The notes beneath the pieces were generated by a model. It made no database searches and was not told where the DNA came from. It saw nothing but the letters and a program-made list of their open reading frames with translations. 35,637 bases of DNA from a virus: positions 1-35,637 of the IMG/VR virus record IMGVR_UViG_3300021091_000210. One strand, 5' to 3'. The translations under genes and the position numbers were made by a program. Numbering within the stretch: position 1 is the first letter of the stretch; every line of letters starts with the position of its first letter. Shown here piece after piece: positions 9,020-35,360 of this stretch.

Positions 9020-9301
9020 TTAATCCTCTCTAATTTCTAGAATTAAGTTTCCGTTGCCTCTGATAACTCTATGATAGCGCATCGCTTCAATAAAGTATGT
9101 CTTTCCTTTTTCTAACTCAACTGGAAGTTCATCGTCAAACTGCAACTTCCAATCGTTTGATTCTTTTACAAACACATGTCGATCTTTACGATCTCTATGC
9201 CAAACCAACTCTTCGTTTTCTACAGATTCTAAAAATGTTCTTACCTTAAAATCTGAAAACAAAACTTCAGTATATGGATTACCAGAAGAAGTTTCCGCCA
9301 C
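9020..9301 (-). CDS. Conserved small protein, possibly cupin-like
   Basis: The frame opens with GTG at 9301, overlapping the end of the 982-aa gene by 23 bases. No ATG is available before residue 73, so the exact start is uncertain. The 93-aa product has a pattern familiar from T4-like phages: FKVRTFLESVENEELVWHRD, a beta-rich middle with ELEKGKTYFIEAMRYHR, and GNLILEI. The His-containing, beta-rich core is compatible with a small cupin fold. The function is unknown. It lies between two large modular proteins and may be co-expressed with them. Confidence 0.75.
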   Translation of the reverse strand: MAETSSGNPYTEVLFSDFKVRTFLESVENEELVWHRDRKDRHVFVKESNDWKLQFDDELPVELEKGKTYFIEAMRYHRVIRGNGNLILEIRED

Positions 9302-12227
9302 CGCTTAATCCCAATTGTTTTGCATATCTTGGTGTATTGCAAGCCCAATATGCGGCACTTGTTCTATCTTTCTGCATACTGCATTGATGACGAGCCGCAA
9401 AAGATTTTCTTGCTTCTGGATCATTCATCTTGACTGATAGACCAGTAGTGTCACCCCATGTGACTTTCTTAATACCACCATCTGGTTTGCGAACAAACAC
9501 ATAAAACTTCTTAGGACCACCACGCTTTGGTTGATTCAATGGTGGATCTTTTTCTTTATCTTCTTCTTCGTACATTGGGCAATCAAGTGGAACATTGCGA
9601 CCTTCGTACTTAGCAAACTCACCAATGTCGGTTTCTGTAATGAGTGCTTTGTCTTCAGAGCAAAGTTCTAGTTTGCCTTCGTTATACAACTTTCTTGCTT
9701 CACGAAACACTTCGAAATATTTTTCAGAACCAACACGATAAACATTTTCAAACAAAGGCACATTGTTATCTACATGCCAATCAATTGCTTCATGTAGTTT
9801 ACCTTCGCCAAACAACTTAAACATGCGTTGCATATTGGCATTGTTAATTGCATCTATTGCGTCATTTGCAGAGTATCTTGCCTTTGTAATCTCAATGCTT
9901 TGTCCTGGAGTAGCCCTTGCGTATGCAATTCTTGCTTGATCAGTTCCATATTCAAGGGCTTCGATAAAATTTGCAAATTCCTCATTCTTTGTAACCTTCT
10001 TCGCAAGGTCACTATCAGCACCTCCCCAAGTGCCTTTGCCTTTGGTGATAAATGAGTTCACTCTTGCAAATGCCCATTGTTGTGCAGTAGTGCCTGGTCT
10101 GTGACCGCCTTGCCATGCCGCCATACCACGATTATAAACTTGCTTGAGAATGCTATATGCAATGCCAGACTTTTCTGCTTTCTTTTTTAGTCCTTCGATT
10201 TCTTCGAATAAGTCAGAAAACTCTTGAAGTTCTTCTTCATTCAATTCTTCTTTTGGTATACTTATAATTGCCTCATATATTTCTTCATCGTCAACTTCAT
10301 ATTCATCTTCATCTTCTTCCTCATCATCATCATAATTATACATGCCTTCAAACTCAAGATAGTCTGTTACGCTTTCAATATAATCTGCGGCTTTTGTAAT
10401 TTTAGAAAGAACCCATGCTTCTGGTTCTTCATCTAGTCCATCTAAAATTTCTAGAAGCACTTCTGCATCTTGCATTAAATTAGCAACTTCAATTTGTGCC
10501 ATTTGAATGCCATCTGTTTCATCGTAATCATATTCATCGTTTTCTTCATTTGTTTCAAAAGTATCTTCAAACATTTCATCAAGTTTTTTGCCTGTAACTT
10601 TTGTTACAAGAGCCCACGCTTCTTTAAATTTTTGTTGGCCAATGAGTTTTTTCAATTCGGCAATTTGTGTTGAACTTGCCTTTTGATAAAATTCAAAAAC
10701 TTCCATTGCGCCAATATTGCCTTTGTATATTGCTTCTTTTACATCAAACTCTTCTTTTTGCAATTGAGTTCTTGTCAAACGGAACAATTGATCAGATGAT
10801 GTGACCATGTCAAGCAATGTTGAAAGAAGATTTTGTGTTGCACTTCTTTCTTGAGGATTTAATACCTCGCCAGCATCCATTTTTGAAATTGAACGCTTGA
10901 TGATTGCTAGAAGTTTTTTATCAGCAAGCCCCATGCGAACCAATTGTTCTAATTTGTTGACTTGTTTTTTATCCATCTCTTCGCCAAACATCTGCTTAAA
11001 CTTCTTTGTATGCTTTGATTGTGGCATATCTTTTTCTCTTGCTTCTTTGTCGCCTGGTGCATCTGCGTATGCTGATTTGTCATCATCTGCTTTTGGACCC
11101 ATACGCTTGAAGTGTGCATCTCTGCGCTCTTTGGTATCTTTGTCTAAACCTTTAAAATACTTCGCTGGTTGTGTGCCTGATTTACCAGCAACATCTTTAT
11201 CTTGTGCAACTTTGCCTTCAAAGAAATTTTTAAATTGTTCATTCTTTGATGCTTGATTTTGTCGCTTCTTTCTTTCGATTTCTGCTTTGCGTACTCTTGG
11301 CAAAAGACGCATTGAAATTTTTGCGATTGCGCCTTTCATTTTTTCAACTTTTTTGTCAACGGCAATTTTCTGCCCTACTGACAAAGATTTGTATGCCTTG
11401 CCGGCGCCAAATCTACGCTTTAGAAATTTAAGTGCGGCTCTTCTTGCTCTAGTCTTTAACTTAGACTGAGAGGCAAAACGGCGCATTGCAAGTTCTCTAG
11501 TTCGTTTTAATTTAGCCTTCATTCTTCTCAACACCATACCTCTTTTTCTGCGTTGAGCCATTGATAAGGCTTCGTTTGTTTTCTCTTCAGGAACGCAATT
11601 TGGTACCATACGATTACCCTTCTTCTTTAGTCCTTGTTGTTTGTAACCAACCCAACATGCTTCGTCAACGGATTCTGTTAATCTCATTCCTTTTTTAACT
11701 GCATCAAACATTTGCTTTGCTTGTGCATCGTTGATTGCAGAAGGAACACCTTCTTTAAATTTATTGAAATCGTTATCTCTTACAAAACCACGCATCTTGG
11801 ATGCAGACATGCCTGACACACCTTCGGCATCAGGATCACGCTCACCTGCGCTAATGACTTCTATTGAATTAAAGGTAAAGTCTTTACCATTGTATCGATT
11901 CAATAGTCTTTCAAACTCTGCAACTCTGTCACTACCAACTACAAGAGTTACATCTGTGAATTTTTCTTTTTCAAGTTCAATCATTACTTCGATGATTGTT
12001 CTTGCTCTTGACTTGACTACATCAATCATTTTATTAAAAGCAAGTTTCGCAAACTTGATTTTGTCATCGTATGAGAGTGGATCTTTTTTTGGATTTGTCG
12101 TGTGGGAAAGATACAGTCTAGCGACTGCGCCACGAGATTTTGCCGCTTTGGCTATGCTTTTTGCGACCAATTCATGTCCGGTCGTGGACGGATTCATTCT
12201 ACCGAATCCTAGTGTTACTTTCTTCAT
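9279..12227 (-). CDS. 982-aa nucleotidyltransferase fusion, modular virion-associated candidate
   Basis: The N-terminus (about 1-160) is an HxGH-type nucleotidyltransferase: GRMNPSTTGHE at 9-19 and GMSASKMR at 139-146, the equivalents of HIGH and ISSTxxR. A Cys module (VDEACWVGYKQQGLKKKGN, about 187-213) shared with the 576-aa protein follows. Then come a very basic helical region (225-320) and an acidic segment (560-650). Next is a GHRPGTTAQQWAFARVNSF module (about 680-745; recalled as DUF5824) and a C-terminal KFYVFVRKPDG...ARHQC module (906-982; recalled as DUF5872). Hydrophobic-x-Glu|Ala sites separate several parts. Substrate and location are unknown; virion packaging is inferred from neighbours. 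Confidence 0.85.
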   Translation of the reverse strand: MKKVTLGFGRMNPSTTGHELVAKSIAKAAKSRGAVARLYLSHTTNPKKDPLSYDDKIKFAKLAFNKMIDVVKSRARTIIEVMIELEKEKFTDVTLVVGSDRVAEFERLLNRYNGKDFTFNSIEVISAGERDPDAEGVSGMSASKMRGFVRDNDFNKFKEGVPSAINDAQAKQMFDAVKKGMRLTESVDEACWVGYKQQGLKKKGNRMVPNCVPEEKTNEALSMAQRRKRGMVLRRMKAKLKRTRELAMRRFASQSKLKTRARRAALKFLKRRFGAGKAYKSLSVGQKIAVDKKVEKMKGAIAKISMRLLPRVRKAEIERKKRQNQASKNEQFKNFFEGKVAQDKDVAGKSGTQPAKYFKGLDKDTKERRDAHFKRMGPKADDDKSAYADAPGDKEAREKDMPQSKHTKKFKQMFGEEMDKKQVNKLEQLVRMGLADKKLLAIIKRSISKMDAGEVLNPQERSATQNLLSTLLDMVTSSDQLFRLTRTQLQKEEFDVKEAIYKGNIGAMEVFEFYQKASSTQIAELKKLIGQQKFKEAWALVTKVTGKKLDEMFEDTFETNEENDEYDYDETDGIQMAQIEVANLMQDAEVLLEILDGLDEEPEAWVLSKITKAADYIESVTDYLEFEGMYNYDDDEEEDEDEYEVDDEEIYEAIISIPKEELNEEELQEFSDLFEEIEGLKKKAEKSGIAYSILKQVYNRGMAAWQGGHRPGTTAQQWAFARVNSFITKGKGTWGGADSDLAKKVTKNEEFANFIEALEYGTDQARIAYARATPGQSIEITKARYSANDAIDAINNANMQRMFKLFGEGKLHEAIDWHVDNNVPLFENVYRVGSEKYFEVFREARKLYNEGKLELCSEDKALITETDIGEFAKYEGRNVPLDCPMYEEEDKEKDPPLNQPKRGGPKKFYVFVRKPDGGIKKVTWGDTTGLSVKMNDPEARKSFAARHQCSMQKDRTSAAYWACNTPRYAKQLGLSGGGNFFW

Positions 12228-19395: not shown

Positions 19396-20235
19396 TTACC
19401 TCTCAAATTTTGTTTTCTTTTCTATTTCTTCCTTGTCCATAGGAATTGGGTCTAATGATGTAAGATCAATTTTAGTTTTCTTTTTAATCTTATCAAGCCC
19501 CTTTACAAAATCGTCTTTTAAATCTGTAGTCATATCAACAAATGCTGGTTGTTCTTCTGGCTTTTTGTATTGATTAAAAGAATAGTTTGCGGCAATCACC
19601 AACAAGACCGCAAGCGGATCAAACACAAAAATCAACAATATAATTACAAATCGAACCGCAGAATCAAAATGATTCTCTGCATCAGAGCCATAGATCAACT
19701 CTGCAATGTATCTTAATGGTCCCACTTCTGCCATCAATGCATTCTCTGCTTTCATCAATGGTAGTTTTTCTTTTTGAATTGAAATCAATTCTTCTTGCGT
19801 TTGCTGAATTGCTCTATCGGTTGATCTTGAAATTTTATCAGGATCATCACCTGCTCTTTTAAGTAGATACTGCAATCTTTCTTTTGTAATCTTTTCTTTC
19901 TGCTCCAGTACTTTTAATTGTACTGAAGTGTCACCAGCATCAATGTTTGATTCAATGTGTGCTTTAGATAGAAAACCAAAGATGCCTAATGATGTAATGA
20001 ACATCAGCACCACAACTGCAAATGTTAAATAGTATTTAAGAAAGCGAGGTGCTTCGTGCCAATTCTTGTACAACCAAGATGCCGCAATTAACTTACCTGC
20101 TTCAAGCCCACCACCCATCAATGCAATAGGGAAAGGGCTTGCCGCAAAGATTGCGATAAGCCCAACAATTGAGTACCATGCCGCAATGGCTGATACAAAT
20201 AATGCACATGCAAGAGTGAGTAAAGCGAAAAGCAT
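19396..20235 (-). CDS. Multi-span membrane protein with central coiled coil
   Basis: A 279-aa protein. Hydrophobic segments lie near 2-22, 24-45 and 68-88, then a long charged helical region (about 105-165, VLEQKEKITKERLQYLLKRA). A further hydrophobic segment is near 192-215 (FVIILLIFVFDPLAVLLVIA), followed by a cytoplasmic tail. Proteins of this layout are frequent in T4-like phages and are usually unassigned. The size and coiled coil resemble envelope-associated scaffolds. No enzymatic motif is seen. Confidence 0.8.
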   Translation of the reverse strand: MLFALLTLACALFVSAIAAWYSIVGLIAIFAASPFPIALMGGGLEAGKLIAASWLYKNWHEAPRFLKYYLTFAVVVLMFITSLGIFGFLSKAHIESNIDAGDTSVQLKVLEQKEKITKERLQYLLKRAGDDPDKISRSTDRAIQQTQEELISIQKEKLPLMKAENALMAEVGPLRYIAELIYGSDAENHFDSAVRFVIILLIFVFDPLAVLLVIAANYSFNQYKKPEEQPAFVDMTTDLKDDFVKGLDKIKKKTKIDLTSLDPIPMDKEEIEKKTKFER

Positions 20236-20236
20236 G

Positions 20237-20638
20237 TCAACCTCTTGTCAAAGACAAAATTTTATCAATCTGATCTTGAATCTTTTCGGTTCTGTTTGGC
20301 CAGTAAATATATTCTTTTTCTGGATTCTTCATAAGATTCACAAGCAAAGGCATAATCATTTCTTCTAATTTTTTTAACTTGCCTTTTGTTTCTTCTTGCA
20401 ACTTTTCTCTTTCGGCATCAAGCCCTAACTTACCTTCATTGTACAATTGAAGAATGCTATCCATTTTGTTTTCAAGGCGAGAGATGCCTTCTACTGATGC
20501 GCCTACAGTTTCACGAATGACTGTAGTTTCAAGTGTATCATGATTGACTACTGGTGTCAATTCTGCTTCATCAACTGCGCTGAAACCAAAATCTTCCATT
20601 GATCTTGGCAACAAATATTCTGTTGGTATTTTACTCAT
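20237..20638 (-). CDS. Conserved T4-like phage protein, unknown
   Basis: A 133-aa protein with a short N-terminal region (YLLPRSMEDFGFSAVDE), a predicted helix or coiled coil (ISRLENKMDSILQLYN and LQEETKGKLKKLEEM), and a conserved ending (YIYWPNRTEKIQDQIDKI). I recognise the tail as recurrent beside DNA polymerase or membrane genes in environmental T4-like phages. The start overlaps the polymerase C-half stop (ATGA). Possible replication accessory, function unknown. Confidence 0.8.
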   Translation of the reverse strand: MSKIPTEYLLPRSMEDFGFSAVDEAELTPVVNHDTLETTVIRETVGASVEGISRLENKMDSILQLYNEGKLGLDAEREKLQEETKGKLKKLEEMIMPLLVNLMKNPEKEYIYWPNRTEKIQDQIDKILSLTRG

Positions 20639-21726
20639 TTAAAAAACCCCATTAGTGATGATACTGGTTCTGGATTCCAACCAAATGTGTTGACGATAAT
20701 CTTAAGTGGTTCAATATATGCTTTTTCAAACTGTGTATCATAATCGATATACTTCTCCATGCCAAACTCTTTTGGTAGAACATTCAATACAGAGAAAACA
20801 TTTTCTTGTAGTGGGTTCGGCATCTTCATGTAACAAAACTTGATCTTGTCGCCATCACGAATTGCTTGGTACTTTTTTTCTAACTTCTTTTGCCTCAGCA
20901 TATGATTGTATAGAAGACTGCCACGAACATGAATTGGTGTGCCTTTTGGATACAATGATGTTGAAGACTTGCTATCATATTTAGTCAGTTCAGAAACACC
21001 TCTTGGAAACGCAACATCTTCAAATGGCAGAGTACTAAACTCTTCTTTGAATTTGGCATTGAATGCCTGAAATTCAATTTCATTACCTGCCATAATGATC
21101 TTAAGTGCTTCTTTAATTTTTTCACGGCATGACATTGGCGTGGAAGACTTGACTGCTTCAATACCCATCATCTTAAGTTTAGGTTCTGCAAATCGCACAC
21201 CTTCTGAATCCCATACATTAAGAATGTATCTTTTCTTTGCAGTCCAGATGCCTTTGTCGGCAATGACTTCTCGCTTCATTTGCATCTTTTGATCATAGGC
21301 ATTCATGTAGTCTGCCAGTTCTTGATATGACTTATCGATGTATGGTTCAATCTTATCCGAACATGCTTTGTCGATTAGATTTACAATCTCTTCTCTACCT
21401 TTGTCTTTGAATACTTTTTCAACAAGTGGACCAAGGTGCAGATAGATCGAATCGGTATCTGATGCAATAACATAATCTATGTTCTCAGTCTTTAGCAATT
21501 TGTTCATATAGATGTTCAATTTCTTTTCAATCCAACGAATAGCCAATTGACCAGAGAGTGTGATTGCCTCTGCTTGACGAATATCAAAGAAGCGAAAGTA
21601 TTCATTACCTAACGCACCATAGGCAGAATTCAACTGAACCTTTTTGGCAAGTTGAAGATTTTTGTAGCGTGAGATTTCATTTTCTAATTGCCTCTTACGC
21701 TTGAGCAATTCTGTTTTTTCAGACAT
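20635..21726 (-). CDS. 43: DNA polymerase, C-terminal part (palm/fingers/thumb)
   Basis: A 363-aa second piece of a family B polymerase. It starts with a charged helix (SEKTELLKRKRQLENEISRY). Motif B follows as KKVQLNSAYG (28-37) and motif C as ASDTDSIYL with D90 and D92, then the thumb. Together with the 480-aa piece the total is 843 aa versus 898 in T4 gp43, so little is missing. It lacks motif A and the exonuclease, so it can only work by assembling with the N-terminal piece. Translation is coupled: its ATG overlaps the oxygenase end by 8 bases. Confidence 0.93.
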   Translation of the reverse strand: MSEKTELLKRKRQLENEISRYKNLQLAKKVQLNSAYGALGNEYFRFFDIRQAEAITLSGQLAIRWIEKKLNIYMNKLLKTENIDYVIASDTDSIYLHLGPLVEKVFKDKGREEIVNLIDKACSDKIEPYIDKSYQELADYMNAYDQKMQMKREVIADKGIWTAKKRYILNVWDSEGVRFAEPKLKMMGIEAVKSSTPMSCREKIKEALKIIMAGNEIEFQAFNAKFKEEFSTLPFEDVAFPRGVSELTKYDSKSSTSLYPKGTPIHVRGSLLYNHMLRQKKLEKKYQAIRDGDKIKFCYMKMPNPLQENVFSVLNVLPKEFGMEKYIDYDTQFEKAYIEPLKIIVNTFGWNPEPVSSLMGFFK

Positions 21727-22228
21727 AGTGAAAGTAGGTACTCATAATATATTTTGGTGTTTGTGTTGGCATCAAACCTTCGTGTGGATACATCCACATT
21801 GGAGGAAAGACTAAAACATTTCCTTGTTTTGCTTCATAGGTAAACTCATCATTTGGTGTATAAAACTTTGTGCCTGCTTCATTATCATTAAGATAAAATA
21901 AAAATGCAAGGTATCTAGTACATGATTGTACACTAATTGCATCGGCATGTAAAGGGAAGCAATGTTTATTTGGTTCATATCTTTTTACACGGAAAGATTC
22001 AATTCTTCTTTTTGTGGGCAAAAGTTTTTTAGGATCGTATCTAGCAGTATAATCTTCTGCAATGCCTTTGGCAACTTCAACCAAATCTTTATGCTCACTT
22101 GTCCAATGAACAATTTCGATTTGATCAAAGATATCATAGGAGGTATCTTTGTTTTCATCTGCATCAAACTTTGCCATGATGTATTCGCAGATTTCTTTCG
22201 GTAGAACATTTTGATACATCTGAATCAT
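21719..22228 (-). CDS. 2-oxoglutarate/Fe(II)-dependent oxygenase
   Basis: A 169-aa protein of the prolyl-4-hydroxylase-like type. The iron ligands H94-x-D96 (LHADA) and H149 (YPHEG) are present, with K159 in PKYIMST at the usual 2OG-binding position. Substrates of phage members are mostly unknown (protein or nucleic acid hydroxylation). The gene is wedged exactly between the two halves of the DNA polymerase, with a 4-base overlap upstream and 8 downstream, so all three are read from one mRNA. No homing-endonuclease signature is visible. Confidence 0.88.
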   Translation of the reverse strand: MIQMYQNVLPKEICEYIMAKFDADENKDTSYDIFDQIEIVHWTSEHKDLVEVAKGIAEDYTARYDPKKLLPTKRRIESFRVKRYEPNKHCFPLHADAISVQSCTRYLAFLFYLNDNEAGTKFYTPNDEFTYEAKQGNVLVFPPMWMYPHEGLMPTQTPKYIMSTYFHYV

Positions 22229-23667
22229 GATAATTCCTTCAATTGTACTTTGACGCTTTCTAATTCTTTCTGCGCTTCAATCATCTTCTTCTTATATAGA
22301 AGACGGTCATCATACATTTTCTGCATCATCTCAGGAAGAAAGCCTTGTTCGTTTCGTTTGAAATAATGACCATTGGCTGCCATACAATATTCATTGTCAG
22401 GTGCATATTTGATGTTCAGTAAATTTTCAATAGAAATTGAACTATGCTTACCATCAACAATTGTTTCAGGTGAAACATTGTATTGCATAATCAAGTGCGG
22501 ATAGAGTGAGTTCAAATCAAACGACACAACCCATTCATATTTACCTGGTGTTGGTTCTTTCACATAAGCACCAGCATACTGTTCGTTCTTTGATGTGTGT
22601 TTGTTTTGTGGTACGACAATACCTTTCTTCCACAAATGATTGTGAGTGAGAGTATCCCACATGCGTACTTGTGTGAATACATCGGTGAAGTTTACTTTAG
22701 CATCATATGCAAGAGCAAGCACCATGTCAATGAATTTCATCTTCTCATCTAATTTATCGACAAGTTCCACATCTTTGATGTTATAGTCAATAAATTTTTG
22801 ATAGTCAAGTTTATAGAGTTGGTGTAGCGTTTCATATTCAGAGTAATCAATTTTGTTCTCACCAAGTTCAATGTAAGCAATGTGGTCAAGGCGAAATGAT
22901 TCTTGCTGAGAGTATGTAAATTTTTTGTAGAGTTCTAGGTAGTCTAGAATTGAGATGCCAACAAGATCAAATGCAGTCTGTTGACGATTGTGAATTGTGG
23001 TTGTGCGTTCACCAATCATACGATATAGCGACAAACGATTTGCAACCTTATCGCCCATCAAACGATTGATACGATTGTAGAGATATGGTATGTCAAAGAA
23101 TTGAATGTTCCATCCAGTTACAATGTCTGGCGACTTCTCTTCCCACATTTGAATAAACTTCATGATGAGGTCGTTTTCATCTCGGCACATAGAGTATGTA
23201 ACATCATCACGATAGTTATTATACTTGCCGCAACCAAACACATAGAAGTGGTTGTTAATCTTGAGTGAGATAGCGGTGATTGGTTCGCTTGCTCTGTCTG
23301 GTTCAGGAAAACCATTCTCTGATCCAACCTCAATGTCAAGATTTGCAATGCGAATCAGTTCACGGTCATAGTACACTTCATCTGGATACTGTTCATTGAT
23401 ATACACATAGGCATAGTTCGTTGAACCATAGATTGGAAAGTTTTCTACTGTTTCATATCGGTCAACAAATTCTTTTGCGTCACGCATAGAACCCAAGTCT
23501 ACGGGTGCAACAAACTTACCATCAAGTGTGCGATATTCAGTTTCTTCTTTTGCGGGAACGAAAAGAGTAGGATTGTATTCTACTTTGCGAGAATATCTCT
23601 TACCGTTTTCGTATCCTCTTTCAAGAATGAAGTTACCTTTGCGTGTAAAGTGCGTATAAAATTTCAT
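22225..23667 (-). CDS. 43: DNA polymerase, N-terminal part (exonuclease and motif A)
   Basis: A 480-aa first piece of the gp43-type family B polymerase. The 3'-5' exonuclease has D111-x-E113 (NLDIEVG; T4 has D112/E114), the ExoII region VTGWNIQFFDIPYL and ExoIII YNIKDVEL. Motif A is SFDLNSLYPHLI. The protein ends in a charged helix (KKKMIEAQKELESVKVQLKE), the tip of the fingers, before motif B. The missing half is the gene at 20635-21726. All exonuclease residues are intact, so proofreading should be active. The ATG overlaps the previous gene by four bases. Confidence 0.94.
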   Translation of the reverse strand: MKFYTHFTRKGNFILERGYENGKRYSRKVEYNPTLFVPAKEETEYRTLDGKFVAPVDLGSMRDAKEFVDRYETVENFPIYGSTNYAYVYINEQYPDEVYYDRELIRIANLDIEVGSENGFPEPDRASEPITAISLKINNHFYVFGCGKYNNYRDDVTYSMCRDENDLIMKFIQMWEEKSPDIVTGWNIQFFDIPYLYNRINRLMGDKVANRLSLYRMIGERTTTIHNRQQTAFDLVGISILDYLELYKKFTYSQQESFRLDHIAYIELGENKIDYSEYETLHQLYKLDYQKFIDYNIKDVELVDKLDEKMKFIDMVLALAYDAKVNFTDVFTQVRMWDTLTHNHLWKKGIVVPQNKHTSKNEQYAGAYVKEPTPGKYEWVVSFDLNSLYPHLIMQYNVSPETIVDGKHSSISIENLLNIKYAPDNEYCMAANGHYFKRNEQGFLPEMMQKMYDDRLLYKKKMIEAQKELESVKVQLKELS

Positions 23668-23957
23668 CGTATGATTGGTTGTTTAGCAATGACAATTCCT
23701 GATCCAAATATCTCATTATACTTGTTTTCGATCTTAATGTCAACGCCTGTAACAAACAATACATGTTTATCTTTAAGTGTAACTTCTTTTTCGGTAGAGA
23801 ATAGTAACCAAGGTTGCATGTTCAAAGATGGTTTGCCATCTGGACCTGCACCAATTACAATTACGCATGGGTTTTTAATTCGGTGTGTATCAGTTGAAGA
23901 TTGTAAAATTTCACCAAGTATTTCTTCACCACTAATCAAACGAAATAGTTTAATCAT
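23664..23957 (-). CDS. Sm/LSm-like small protein
   Basis: A 97-aa protein beginning MIKLFRLISGEEILGEILQS, then strands with KNPCVIV, LNMQPWLLFS and VLFVTGVDIKIENKYNEIFGSG. The order of short strands and the ISGEEI.GEI opening match the Hfq/Sm-like proteins I recall next to gene 43 in marine T4-like phages. Such proteins bind RNA as rings and could regulate phage or host mRNAs. The identification is from pattern memory only. Confidence 0.65.
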   Translation of the reverse strand: MIKLFRLISGEEILGEILQSSTDTHRIKNPCVIVIGAGPDGKPSLNMQPWLLFSTEKEVTLKDKHVLFVTGVDIKIENKYNEIFGSGIVIAKQPIIR

Positions 23958-23975
23958 AATTTTCTTTCATATGAA

Positions 23976-23995
23976 ATGGGGGCATATGCCCCCAT
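23976..23995 (-). terminator. Perfect 20-bp palindrome, terminator-like hairpin
   Basis: ATGGGGGCATATGCCCCCAT is self-complementary and would form an 8-bp stem on a 4-base loop in RNA, followed by TTTCAT. The weak T-run makes termination incomplete. It lies between the 36-aa gene and the Sm-like gene and may also limit the Sm-like/polymerase readthrough. Confidence 0.6.
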
Positions 23996-23997
23996 GT

Positions 23998-24108
23998 TTA
24001 CTCAATGTGATGGTGTTTGCGATAATACTTTGCCTGCTTTAAACGGGCTTCAGCAATAGATTCACCAACAATAACAAGATAATTCCAAATACTACTTAGC
24101 ACCTTCAT
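23998..24108 (-). CDS. Small 36-aa protein after hsp20
   Basis: ATG at 24106-24108, stop at 23998-24000. GAGG lies seven bases before the ATG, and the start overlaps the hsp20 end by 17 bases. The product is MKVLSSIWNYLVIVGESIAE followed by a basic end with KQAKYYRKHHH. Short proteins of this form (hydrophobic start, ARLKQA helix, basic tail) are common in T4-like phages. The function is unknown. The hairpin that follows closes the unit. Confidence 0.65.
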   Translation of the reverse strand: MKVLSSIWNYLVIVGESIAEARLKQAKYYRKHHHIE

Positions 24109-24616
24109 ATGCATCCTCTTCTACAAGCAATTGTGGCTTGTTCATGGAAGCAAATTCGGATACAGTAGAACCTTCTTCGCTAACTTCGATTTTTTTTGGT
24201 TTCTTATGTTCTGGAATGATTTTCTCTAAACCAATTTTGAGCATACCATTGATCAGAGCCGCACCTTTGATTTCGATCTTGTCATCAAGAGCAAATGTGC
24301 GAGTAAAGTTTCTTGCGGCAATACCTTGGAAGAGATAATCATATGGGTTTGTTGTATCTTCTTTAGCGTTACCTTTTACAATCAACTTATCATCCGCAAA
24401 TTCAATTTCGATTTCTGATTTAGAGAAACCAGCAACCGCAAGTTCGATAACATAGTGAGTGTCATCAACTTTTTTGATGTTGTATGGAGGATAGTTAGGA
24501 ATGTTTTTAGTAATATCATCATGAATTTTTGCTAGGCGATTGAATTGATCATCAAAGCCGACAAAAAATTTATCAAAGTCCTTGAAACCAGGACCAAAAA
24601 CAGATAGATGTGTCAT
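24092..24616 (-). CDS. Small heat shock protein Hsp20 (alpha-crystallin family)
   Basis: The ATG at 24616 (MTHLSVFGPGFKDFDKFF) follows AAGGAGA, so I reject the longer frame that begins at 24676. The 174-aa product has an IbpA-like N-terminal arm (GPGFKDFDKFFVGFDDQFNR), then the alpha-crystallin domain from about residue 41 to 130. That domain includes the DTHYVIELAVAGFSKSEIEI strand pair and ALINGMLKIGLEKIIPEHKK. It acts as a holdase, preventing aggregation of unfolded phage or host proteins. It shares a late-promoter transcript with the 74-aa gene. Such genes are frequent in marine T4-like phages. Confidence 0.93.
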   Translation of the reverse strand: MTHLSVFGPGFKDFDKFFVGFDDQFNRLAKIHDDITKNIPNYPPYNIKKVDDTHYVIELAVAGFSKSEIEIEFADDKLIVKGNAKEDTTNPYDYLFQGIAARNFTRTFALDDKIEIKGAALINGMLKIGLEKIIPEHKKPKKIEVSEEGSTVSEFASMNKPQLLVEEDAYEGAK

Positions 24617-24629
24617 AGAGTTCTCCTTA

Positions 24630-24854
24630 TTACTTAGTTGCAAAAGCCTTTTTCGCATCGAAATTAAAAAGCGCATGGTTTGTAGTTGTTACAAAATTAA
24701 GCGTTTCTTGTCCAATGGTCTTTGCGAAAGATGACTGTGCATCAATGTAAGTTTGGAGTGGTTTTGCAATTTCTGCGTTAGGAACGAATGTCTTAACGAA
24801 TTGCGTTTTGGCGCCGGTAACGGCATCGATTACTGCATTATATGCTGAGATCAT
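24630..24854 (-). CDS. Small helical protein, phasin-like pattern
   Basis: A 74-aa, Ala/Thr/Phe-rich, probably all-helical protein (MISAYNAVIDAVTGAKTQF; YIDAQSSFAKTIGQ; NFVTTTNHALFNF). The FIDAQ..FAK pattern recalls short phasin-like or structural helices. It has a strong ribosome site (AAGGAG) and is the first gene behind a TATAAATA box, with hsp20 14 bases downstream. A late, possibly abundant protein. Function unknown. Confidence 0.75.
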   Translation of the reverse strand: MISAYNAVIDAVTGAKTQFVKTFVPNAEIAKPLQTYIDAQSSFAKTIGQETLNFVTTTNHALFNFDAKKAFATK

Positions 24855-24885
24855 AGATTTCTCCTTAGTTAAGCGAGTTAAATTT

Positions 24886-24906
24886 TGCTACCCGTTCGGC
24901 GTAGCA
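24886..24906 (-). other. Leader hairpin upstream of the 74-aa gene
   Basis: On the minus strand TGCTAC-G-CC-GAAC-GG-GTAGCA forms an 8-bp stem with one bulged G. It lies in the roughly 70-nt leader of the late transcript, upstream of the ribosome site. No T-run follows, so it may stabilise the mRNA rather than terminate it. Confidence 0.45.
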
Positions 24907-24912
24907 GATACA

Positions 24913-24952
24913 TCAAGGAATGCATCATAGTTATTTATAACGCATCCCTTGA
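24913..24952. repeat. Inverted repeat flanking the late promoter
   Basis: 11-base arms (TCAAGGAATGC and GCATCCCTTGA on the + strand) with one mismatch (a G-U pair in RNA) and an 18-base spacer. The spacer carries TATAAATA and its own smaller palindrome GTTAT-aa-ATAAC. Role unknown. Confidence 0.6.
24932..24939 (-). promoter_or_regulatory. T4-type late promoter TATAAATA
   Basis: An exact TATAAATA on the minus strand, in a non-coding gap. Predicted start about 24926, leader about 72 nt to the 74-aa gene and hsp20. It sits inside a larger inverted repeat. Confidence 0.8.
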
Positions 24953-24969
24953 AATTCCGTTTTATGGAA

Positions 24970-25197
24970 TTATGATTGCCAAATCATACGGCGAGAAACA
25001 AAGTAAGTAGTGCGACCTTCGGTGTTGATTGTTGTGCGAACACGATAGCCGAGTTCACGCAGATCGCTCATACGGGCACGGAGGTTCTTGACACCAAAGA
25101 GTGCCCGTGCCTGTGGTGCAGAGATTCCACGATTCTTTCCACGAAGGAAAGAAATAAGGCTCTCAACTTGTGTTTTACCAGTTTTAATAAATGCCAT
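24970..25197 (-). CDS. Small helix-turn-helix DNA-binding protein
   Basis: The ATG at 25197 (MAFIKTGKTQVESLISFLRG) has AAGGAG upstream. The longer frame starting at 25215 is not preferred. The 75-aa basic protein contains GISAPQARALFGVKNLRARMSDLRELGY, a clear winged-HTH pattern, then a beta-hairpin wing with VRTTINTEGRTTYFVSRR. It probably binds DNA as a transcription regulator. Its own promoter carries a dyad in the spacer and an attenuator-like hairpin follows, so autoregulation is plausible. Confidence 0.8.
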   Translation of the reverse strand: MAFIKTGKTQVESLISFLRGKNRGISAPQARALFGVKNLRARMSDLRELGYRVRTTINTEGRTTYFVSRRMIWQS

Positions 25198-34394: not shown

Positions 34395-35360
34395 TTACTC
34401 ACTAAAGAATTTTGTGAGTGTGTTGGCGGATGCTTGTTCGGCTTCTCTTTTTTTTCTATAATATTCTTTCATTGCCGCAGATTTTTTAGCCTTTATTTCT
34501 GGCTTACTCAAGGCTTCTTTGATTGCCGCAGACATTTTAGCCCTTACTTCTGGCTTACTCAAGGCTTCTTTCGTTGCCGCAGAATGTTTAGCCTTTACTT
34601 CCGGTCTATTCATTGTCGCAGACATTTTAGCCTTTACTTCTGGTCTACTGAAGGCTTCTTTTAATGCCGCAGATATTTTAGCCCTTACTTCTGGCTTACT
34701 TAAGGCTTTTTTCCTTGCCTCGGATATTTTAGCCCTTACTTCTGGTCTACTCATTACCTCAGAATGTCTAGCCTTTACTTCCGGTCTATTCATGGCTTCT
34801 TTCATTGCCGTAGACATTTTAGCCCTTACTTCTGGCTTACTCAAGGCTTCTTTCGTTGCCGCAGATATTTTAGCCCTTACTTCTGGCTTACTCAAGGCTT
34901 CTTTGATTGCCGCAGAATGTTTAGCCTTTGCTTCTGGTCTATTCATTGCCTCAAAATATCTAGCCTTTACTTCTGGTCTATTCATGTAGACTTTCATTGC
35001 CGCAGACATTTTAGCCCTTACTTCTGGCTTACTCAAGGCTTCTTTGATTGCCGCAGATTGTTTCATTCTTGTTTCATCTGACTTTATTGCGCCGCTAGGA
35101 CCCCCATCACCACCATCAGTTAAATTTCTAAGAATTCCTGTGCCATTATCTTTTCTTCCGTATTTTGCAATTAACTCTTTTTCAATCGTAAAGGCTTCTT
35201 CTTCAGTTAAATTTTCAGAGTGAAATATTATTCTTGTTTTATCAGCAGGAAGTTTCATTCTTCTTCCATTATTCGTGAATGCTCTTTTGCCTTTACCTTT
35301 ACCAACATAGTAAGGTGTATTATCTTCTCTCAGATAAAGATAAACATAAAAATCATTCAT
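34395..35360 (-). CDS. GIY-YIG homing-type endonuclease with NUMOD3-like repeat tail
   Basis: A 321-aa protein. The N-terminal GIY-YIG domain has FYVYLYL (4-10) and YYVGKG (17-22) in the GIY and YIG positions, an Arg near 26, and IEKELIAKYG with a candidate catalytic Glu near 60-62. LTDGGDGG follows, as in T4 seg-type enzymes. Residues 110-301 are twelve tandem repeats of 17 or 13 aa built on PEVRAK or PEVKA, like NUMOD3 DNA-binding units. The gene starts within the stop of the partial upstream gene (ATGA) and ends before a terminator. Free-standing homing nucleases spread this way. Confidence 0.92.
   Translation of the reverse strand: MNDFYVYLYLREDNTPYYVGKGKGKRAFTNNGRRMKLPADKTRIIFHSENLTEEEAFTIEKELIAKYGRKDNGTGILRNLTDGGDGGPSGAIKSDETRMKQSAAIKEALSKPEVRAKMSAAMKVYMNRPEVKARYFEAMNRPEAKAKHSAAIKEALSKPEVRAKISAATKEALSKPEVRAKMSTAMKEAMNRPEVKARHSEVMSRPEVRAKISEARKKALSKPEVRAKISAALKEAFSRPEVKAKMSATMNRPEVKAKHSAATKEALSKPEVRAKMSAAIKEALSKPEIKAKKSAAMKEYYRKKREAEQASANTLTKFFSE
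34458..35033 (-). repeat. Tandem 51/39-bp coding repeats in the GIY-YIG gene
   Basis: Nine 17-aa units and three 13-aa units (units 2, 6 and 9), totalling 192 codons. The consensus is [S/N]-[K/R]-P-E-V-[R/K]-A-K-x-S-A-A followed by a variable KEAL. DNA copies are nearly identical, implying recent duplication. A degenerate unit precedes the array (residues 94-109). Confidence 0.9.

Follow-up and report, generated by a model that had tools for sequence, protein, structure and literature searches.

We examined a 35,637-base IMG/VR virus record (IMGVR_UViG_3300021091_000210, analysed as a whole and called the window here), whose minus strand bears a T4-like phage replication cluster, and found that its replicative DNA polymerase gene, gp43, is divided into two genes (43A and 43B) with a 2-oxoglutarate (2OG)-Fe(II) oxygenase gene between them. 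The three head-to-tail open reading frames (ORFs) span 23667-20635 (-). The N-terminal half, 43A (22225-23667, -; 480 amino acids [aa]), carries the exonuclease, motif A and the first fingers helix, as judged from the ORF, Pfam, PHROG, alignment to RB69 and an AlphaFold2 model; the oxygenase (21719-22228, -; 169 aa) has a prolyl-4-hydroxylase fold with H94, D96, H149 and K159 (ORF, Pfam, model, fold search and alignment); and the C-terminal half, 43B (20635-21726, -; 363 aa), carries the second fingers helix, motifs B and C and the thumb (ORF, Pfam, PHROG and RB69 alignment). As the initial annotation had stated, the genes are linked by overlaps of 4 and 8 bases: ATGA (22225-22228, -) joins the 43A stop to the oxygenase start, and ATGTCTGA (21719-21726, -) joins the oxygenase stop to the 43B start, with the 43B ATG sitting within the final oxygenase codons (TAT GTC TGA). 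An AAGGA lies inside the 43A tail, a few bases 5' of the oxygenase start. Read along the minus strand, the cluster runs gp45, gp44, gp62, regA, hsp20, 43A, oxygenase, 43B, two more genes, an epimerase, a cytidylyltransferase-like gene, uvsX and gp41.

The two halves and the position of the break

The assignment of exonuclease and motif A to the 480-aa gene and of motifs B and C to the 363-aa gene agrees with both Pfam and PHROG. 43A matches the exonuclease domain PF03104 (6e-24) and the first part of DNA_pol_B (PF00136, 5.5e-20, profile positions 23-147), 43B carries on the same profile (143-239), and the full-length gp43 family PHROG_262 (856 positions) is nearly wholly covered, at 7-495 by 43A and at 496-852 by 43B. 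Their summed length, 843 aa vs. ~827-831 aa in intact relatives, is indeed near full length. Two other families, PHROG 2062 (502 positions) and 1918 (382 positions), each match one polymerase half, which suggests, from match lengths rather than from family membership, that split gp43 halves are already common enough to make families of their own.

In RB69 numbering (phmmer), 43A aligns up to residue 503 and 43B from residue 554, an interval within the fingers. The stretch from the Arg before the first fingers helix to the NSxYG of motif B measures 44 residues in intact sisters (L069, L008) and 24-25 plus 32 residues in the alleles occupied by an oxygenase, and the tail and head lengths, compared with the splits in Aeromonas phages, genome G001 and marine phages, likewise fit a break at the fingers tip, where the initial annotation had put it. 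Of the further idea that both broken ends are charged helices that could pair, the modelling bears on the 43A end: in the AlphaFold2 model 43A ends as one unbroken helix (residues 443-479, pLDDT ~61-77 there). When 43A was modelled without 43B, part of the palm (358-395) was poorly predicted, which would fit two halves that depend on one another.

We also considered whether splicing, an intein or bypass by the ribosome could still yield a continuous polymerase. The shared frame of 43A and 43B (oxygenase-type gaps are multiples of three) would permit this; however, Rfam found no intron in window 20000-25000 or in L005, L012, L059, L098, L181 and L255, a Pfam search at E 0.01 found no intein domain, and, since the entire gap is oxygenase coding sequence under purifying selection (see below), there is no room for either. 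A splicing element that removes the oxygenase gene, the outcome that would have undone the initial annotation, was thus not found, and restoration of one chain by any of these routes is very improbable.

A conserved junction around a conserved oxygenase

The same arrangement is present in 22 further IMG/VR contigs from 20 metagenome ids, 19 of which show both halves (L001-L007, L059, L060, L076, L081, L082, L086-L088, L181, L182, L185, L186, L190, L191 and L194; remaining locus ids with the oxygenase split are extra copies of these 22). L081 is a separate contig, with all three proteins identical to those of the window over the stretch it covers; in L186 the 43B match begins late, and L194 shows 43B only. 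A scan with 43A returned 80 loci, 67 with an intact frame, nine with 43A-oxygenase-43B, one with 43A and oxygenase followed by the contig end, and three in which the sequence stops before the site or before 43B, while a DNA pattern for the oxygenase/43B junction hit 20 contigs, all already in the set. The oxygenase aside, neighbouring gene order is equal in occupied and intact relatives. Many occupied contigs are strongly diverged yet share the breakpoint and the same junction types, and the comparison with relatives gave no sign of a frameshift; an assembly or sequencing artefact is in practice excluded because the arrangement recurs in 22 independent contigs, and we give it practically no weight.

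The 43A stop overlaps the oxygenase start in all 19 rows in which it is visible (ATGA in 17, GTGA in 2), and the 43B start lies inside the last oxygenase codons, as ATGTYTRA, in 20/20 rows; the insert thus supplies the 43A stop codon as well as the 43B start codon. The AAGGA shortly 5' of the oxygenase start is a trait of the window clade that L059, L060 and L191 lack. The cassette measures ~0.6 kb and comprises a 43A tip of 14-15 codons plus stop, the oxygenase gene and a 43B tip of 17 codons. In the window these tips are QKELESVKVQLKELS plus stop (22225-22272, -) and MSEKTELLKRKRQLENE (21676-21726, -), both of which belong to the piece in which occupied alleles differ from empty ones. From the overlaps we infer that translation may be coupled across all three genes.

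The identification of the insert as a 2OG-Fe(II) oxygenase with complete ligands was confirmed. PF13640 (2OG-FeII_Oxy_3, 3.2e-8) is the sole Pfam family in it, no nuclease domain being found by Pfam, and the H-x-D...H triad (H94, D96, H149) and K159, 10 residues past it, are invariant in 43/43 aligned rows. An AlphaFold2 model built from this 43-row alignment (pLDDT 92.9) shows the double-stranded beta-helix fold of prolyl hydroxylases, and a fold search (VIA) matched it to PBCV-1 vCPH, a viral collagen prolyl hydroxylase (5c5t, Z 19.0 over 155 residues, 2.3 A), followed by the Pseudomonas putida prolyl 4-hydroxylase (P4H; Z 18.2), an algal P4H and PHD2 (Z 17.6). The phage protein shares with PBCV-1 vCPH, P. 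putida P4H and PHD2 the fold, the HxD...H triad and the basic 2OG-binding residue; it differs in its short 169-aa form within a polymerase gene and is just 14-18% identical to them, and a sequence search against PDB gave nothing at E 1, so that only the fold search gave matches. AlkB-type DNA repair enzymes were absent from the 50 VIA matches listed, which does not exclude such a relationship. Two PHROG families labelled DNA endonuclease, PHROG_2297 (2e-15) and PHROG_274 (1e-6), also match the insert; we rejected a hidden nuclease and did not follow these labels because Pfam and fold both indicate an oxygenase.

All three genes are in use, since dN/dS is low both in the oxygenase (0.03-0.19 in the 6 informative pairs of 7 computed) and in the polymerase halves (0.05-0.13); the oxygenase is kept by purifying selection. 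Judging from the modelled fold, it most likely hydroxylates a prolyl residue in a host or phage protein. Cyanophage 2OG oxygenases have been suggested to serve DNA repair or to drain 2OG (PMC3037559), and the predicted prolyl-hydroxylase fold speaks more for a protein as substrate than for either of these proposals.

Relatives of the oxygenase occur elsewhere. In cyanophages and their relatives, distant homologues (31-40% identical) are encoded between uvsX and gp41; these PHROG_61 phage 2OG-Fe(II) oxygenases (e.g. that of S-PRM1) share the replication cluster with the window's enzyme but are free-standing, beside an intact or differently split gp43. In L241, L243, L247 and L252 a distant homologue (33-34%) stands directly 3' of the C-terminal half of gp43; in three of the four it precedes uvsX, and the L252 contig stops there. 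Nearer free-standing homologues (44-60%; L195-L211) occupy other genomic places. Nine loci (L198, L202, L203, L205-L208, L211 and L240) carry oxygenase homologues (45-46%) ~0.8-0.9 kb from a homologue of the membrane protein encoded at window 19396-20235, with no gp43 in the DNA examined around them. No close member turned up in phage isolates, the best identity among the matches listed for 383 records being 36.9%, and a search of genome contigs with the oxygenase alignment for a clue to the host returned just two distant matches (31% and 39%) and gave no such clue.

Probable spread of the cassette across polymerase lineages

To place occupied and empty alleles, we built a polymerase tree with the tip columns excluded (41 rows, 805 columns), comprising 17 of the 23 occupied records, the window counted, and 24 hand-picked intact loci. 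Duplicates and fragments were left out (L060, which is identical to L059, as well as L081, L006, L088, L185 and L186; L194 has 43B only); one row selection removed near-copies above 96% and labelled the split loci L129 and L133 as 'int'. Occupied rows fall in three places, and parsimony requires three changes: the window clade (15 rows, support 100/99); L191, which pairs with intact L008 (100/99; 86% identity over 536 columns); and L059, which pairs with intact L069 (96/95; 94% identity over 803 columns) within a clade that also holds intact L067 (100/100). Forcing the 17 occupied rows into one clade was 381 log units worse (p-AU 1e-99). In conflict with this tree, L059 and L191 group as sisters when the oxygenases are compared (99/98; 69% identity).

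The DNA around the site tells how much has moved. In 60-nt windows L059 is 72-93% identical to intact L069 and 53-85% identical to the occupied window, and in the two such windows closest to the site the values are 90% and 83% for L069 vs. 68% and 70% for the window. The L059 tips (QKELELINEKLNAL and MSEKEQLLKRKEELIKN), on the other hand, resemble those of L191 (QKELEKVNERLAQL and MSEKEQLLLKKEQLLKD) and are unlike the intact L069 tip (QKKKETVKTPEDKFECDKQ). Because the L059 flanks follow L069 while its tips follow occupied L191, the moved piece is roughly the 43A tip, the oxygenase and the 43B tip. One site thus has occupied and empty alleles and a record of horizontal spread. The tree alone cannot separate gain of the cassette from its loss in L059; gain appears more likely from the sequences, because the empty members of the pairs bear the tip style of their wider kin.

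The identities between the window and L082 (oxygenase 96%, 43A 86%) had suggested that the oxygenase was transferred recently, an idea that we rejected because dS is alike (0.74 vs. 0.64 and 0.54). For L059-L191, dS is 1.31 in the oxygenase and saturated in the polymerase; its direction is that of a transfer, but it is too noisy to rely on.

Several observations weigh against spread of such a cassette between lineages. Two of the three lineages rest on one or two contigs each (L059/L060; L191). The flank windows of L191 are less clear than those of L059, and the downstream comparison slips past ~240 nt because gaps were disallowed. Free-standing homologues (L195, L198-L211) fall among the inserted oxygenases, on weak unstarred branches, which leaves the direction of travel unsettled. 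Finally, the cassette has no nuclease or other motor, so that its efficient spread is not explained.

Other split polymerases and competing explanations

Splits at this site are already known. Aeromonas phage 25 (DQ529280) is annotated with 43B, a GIY-YIG endonuclease and 43A, so that the initial annotation was right in linking split gene 43 of Aeromonas phages to homing nucleases, and in Aeromonas 44RR2.8t 43A and 43B lie ~50 bases apart. Like the window, both have a T4-like family B polymerase in two adjacent co-directional genes broken at the fingers tip; they differ in that their gap holds a GIY-YIG nuclease or ~50 bases, with an intron also in phage 25 43B, whereas in the window an oxygenase fills the gap and overlaps on both sides.

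A scan with 43B found 10 split genes among 78 loci showing both halves. Split loci L101 and L102 are of the oxygenase type, on contigs already in the occupied set; L111, L120 and L131 have no insert, the ORFs overlapping by one base in L111 and L120; and L122, L127 and L170 have HNH nucleases in the gap (PHROG_655 and 374). Synechococcus phage ACG-2014f (L098) has two small ORFs in its gp43 gap, and G001 (L255 2084-5685) has a split gp43 with a 309-aa gene in the gap that gives helix-turn-helix and nuclease-like matches, as well as a free-standing oxygenase (L197 6366-6923), 53% identical to the window's, ~8 kb from the split gp43. ACG-2014f, L111, L120, L122, L127, L131 and L170 are broken at the same site as the window but belong to separate lineages, with two small ORFs, HNH nucleases or nothing in the gap and tips unlike those of the oxygenase type. 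Because so many lineages are split there with varied gap contents, the fingers tip is a recurrent docking site. In L129 and L133 gp43 is split elsewhere, shortly past motif A, and the gap contains an HNH gene (L129 2668-6065). L170 1543-4825 encodes gp43 as three ORFs (373, 95 and 385 aa) with the HNH gene ahead of the last, so that a further break or a frameshift is present. In ACG-2014f (L098 3362-4552) the annotated 43B start falls inside the conserved motif B region; the conserved stretch 5' of it is open, but no in-frame ATG, GTG or TTG was found there. The same locus has a manA RNA motif between two tRNA genes (9065-9423).

As its break coincides with Aeromonas 43A/43B and with the marine splits, the split itself is of a known kind, and the oxygenase cargo is what is new. 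In the PMC literature that we searched, which most subscription papers lie outside, we found no description of gp43 interrupted by an oxygenase. Fractured genes with split inteins, reportedly described by Dassa in 2009, are likewise essential replication genes broken by mobile DNA. Homing endonuclease gene (HEG) islands also concern essential replication genes moved with mobile DNA (PMC10448857); in contrast to both, the window cassette has neither an intein nor a nuclease.

The explanation that we consider probable is a two-subunit polymerase split by a nuclease-less oxygenase cassette that spread through recombination. The replicative polymerase would be made as 43A and 43B, joining at the fingers into one enzyme without a covalent link; in Aeromonas phage 25, the only such case known from experiment, the halves co-purify and show polymerase activity (PMC2988022). 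With its own stop and start, the ~0.6-kb cassette supplies all that is required to turn one reading frame into three linked ones. Trees and flanks place it, together with its tips, at one and the same site in three polymerase lineages. Its likely route was recombination during co-infection, through the gp43 sequences that flank it, perhaps aided by a homing nuclease elsewhere. Selection retains the oxygenase, which, from its fold, would hydroxylate proline in a host or phage protein.

We weighed three other accounts against these observations. A single old insertion followed by several precise losses, in which intact relatives regained the unsplit gene by recombination, would suit the age of the oxygenase-split allele, which must be old because its divergence is deep (56-98% identity between distinct inserted oxygenases) and its junction conserved; loss via recombination with intact alleles is also feasible. 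L059, however, is nested with intact L069 and L067 (100/100), these two share an intact tip style (QKKKE..K...KFEC.KQ), found more loosely in distant intact relatives, and the oxygenases of L059 and L191 are sisters while their polymerases are not, all of which makes this account quite unlikely. A homing-endonuclease gene may instead have split gp43 at the fingers tip before it was swapped for an oxygenase. We regard this history, which is compatible with the probable explanation above, as possible but doubtful: the same site bears HNH genes (L122, L127, L170), a GIY-YIG gene (Aeromonas 25), small ORFs (ACG-2014f) or nothing (L111, L120, L131), and G001 combines a gp43 split around a nuclease-like gene with a free-standing oxygenase; but no nuclease remnant was found in the gap of any oxygenase-type contig, and the tips of oxygenase alleles are unlike those of HNH alleles.

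The oxygenase might also be a working partner of the polymerase or replisome that hydroxylates gp43, UvsX or another replication protein, its position enforcing matched synthesis. The overlap of the three ORFs would be in keeping with this, as would distant homologues in the same replication cluster of phages with unsplit gp43, between uvsX and gp41 or just past gp43. Against it, 67/80 loci of the 43A scan are intact without an oxygenase match in the DNA examined, and further homologues have tail genes as neighbours (L089, L207) or are located at a distance from gp43 (G001); we consider a replisome partnership unlikely. Returning to the recombining cassette, we tentatively suggest that it may represent a new sort of mobile cassette, one that lacks a nuclease and inserts site-specifically at the gp43 fingers tip, with its own stop and start to let the essential gene persist as two subunits. 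It would spread between phage lineages thanks to a selected enzyme instead of a homing nuclease; this enzyme is perhaps a prolyl hydroxylase whose target is host translation or the replisome.

Two further features of the window were noted. At 24849-24908 (-), 5' of a small ORF and the Hsp20 gene, there is a ROSE_3 RNA thermometer-like match (35.4 bits, gathering 43, E 1.1e-4), with none at E 0.1 in L005, L012, L059 and L181. The gene at 34395-35360 (-) matches the homing endonuclease family PHROG_314 with its N-terminal 154 residues (E 2.8e-19), its long remainder having only scattered Pfam matches.

Split essential genes of phages are usually read as scars of selfish homing nucleases, and here the same scar site in a replicative polymerase bears a conserved non-nuclease enzyme. 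Since close relatives with and without the oxygenase exist (94% identical polymerases), two questions become directly testable: by what means the halves of a split family B polymerase assemble, and whether cargo without a nuclease can spread in a homing-like manner. For protein engineers the locus is also a natural example of a polymerase in two parts, divided at the fingers tip, and it shows a phage enzyme resembling prolyl hydroxylases within the replication cluster.

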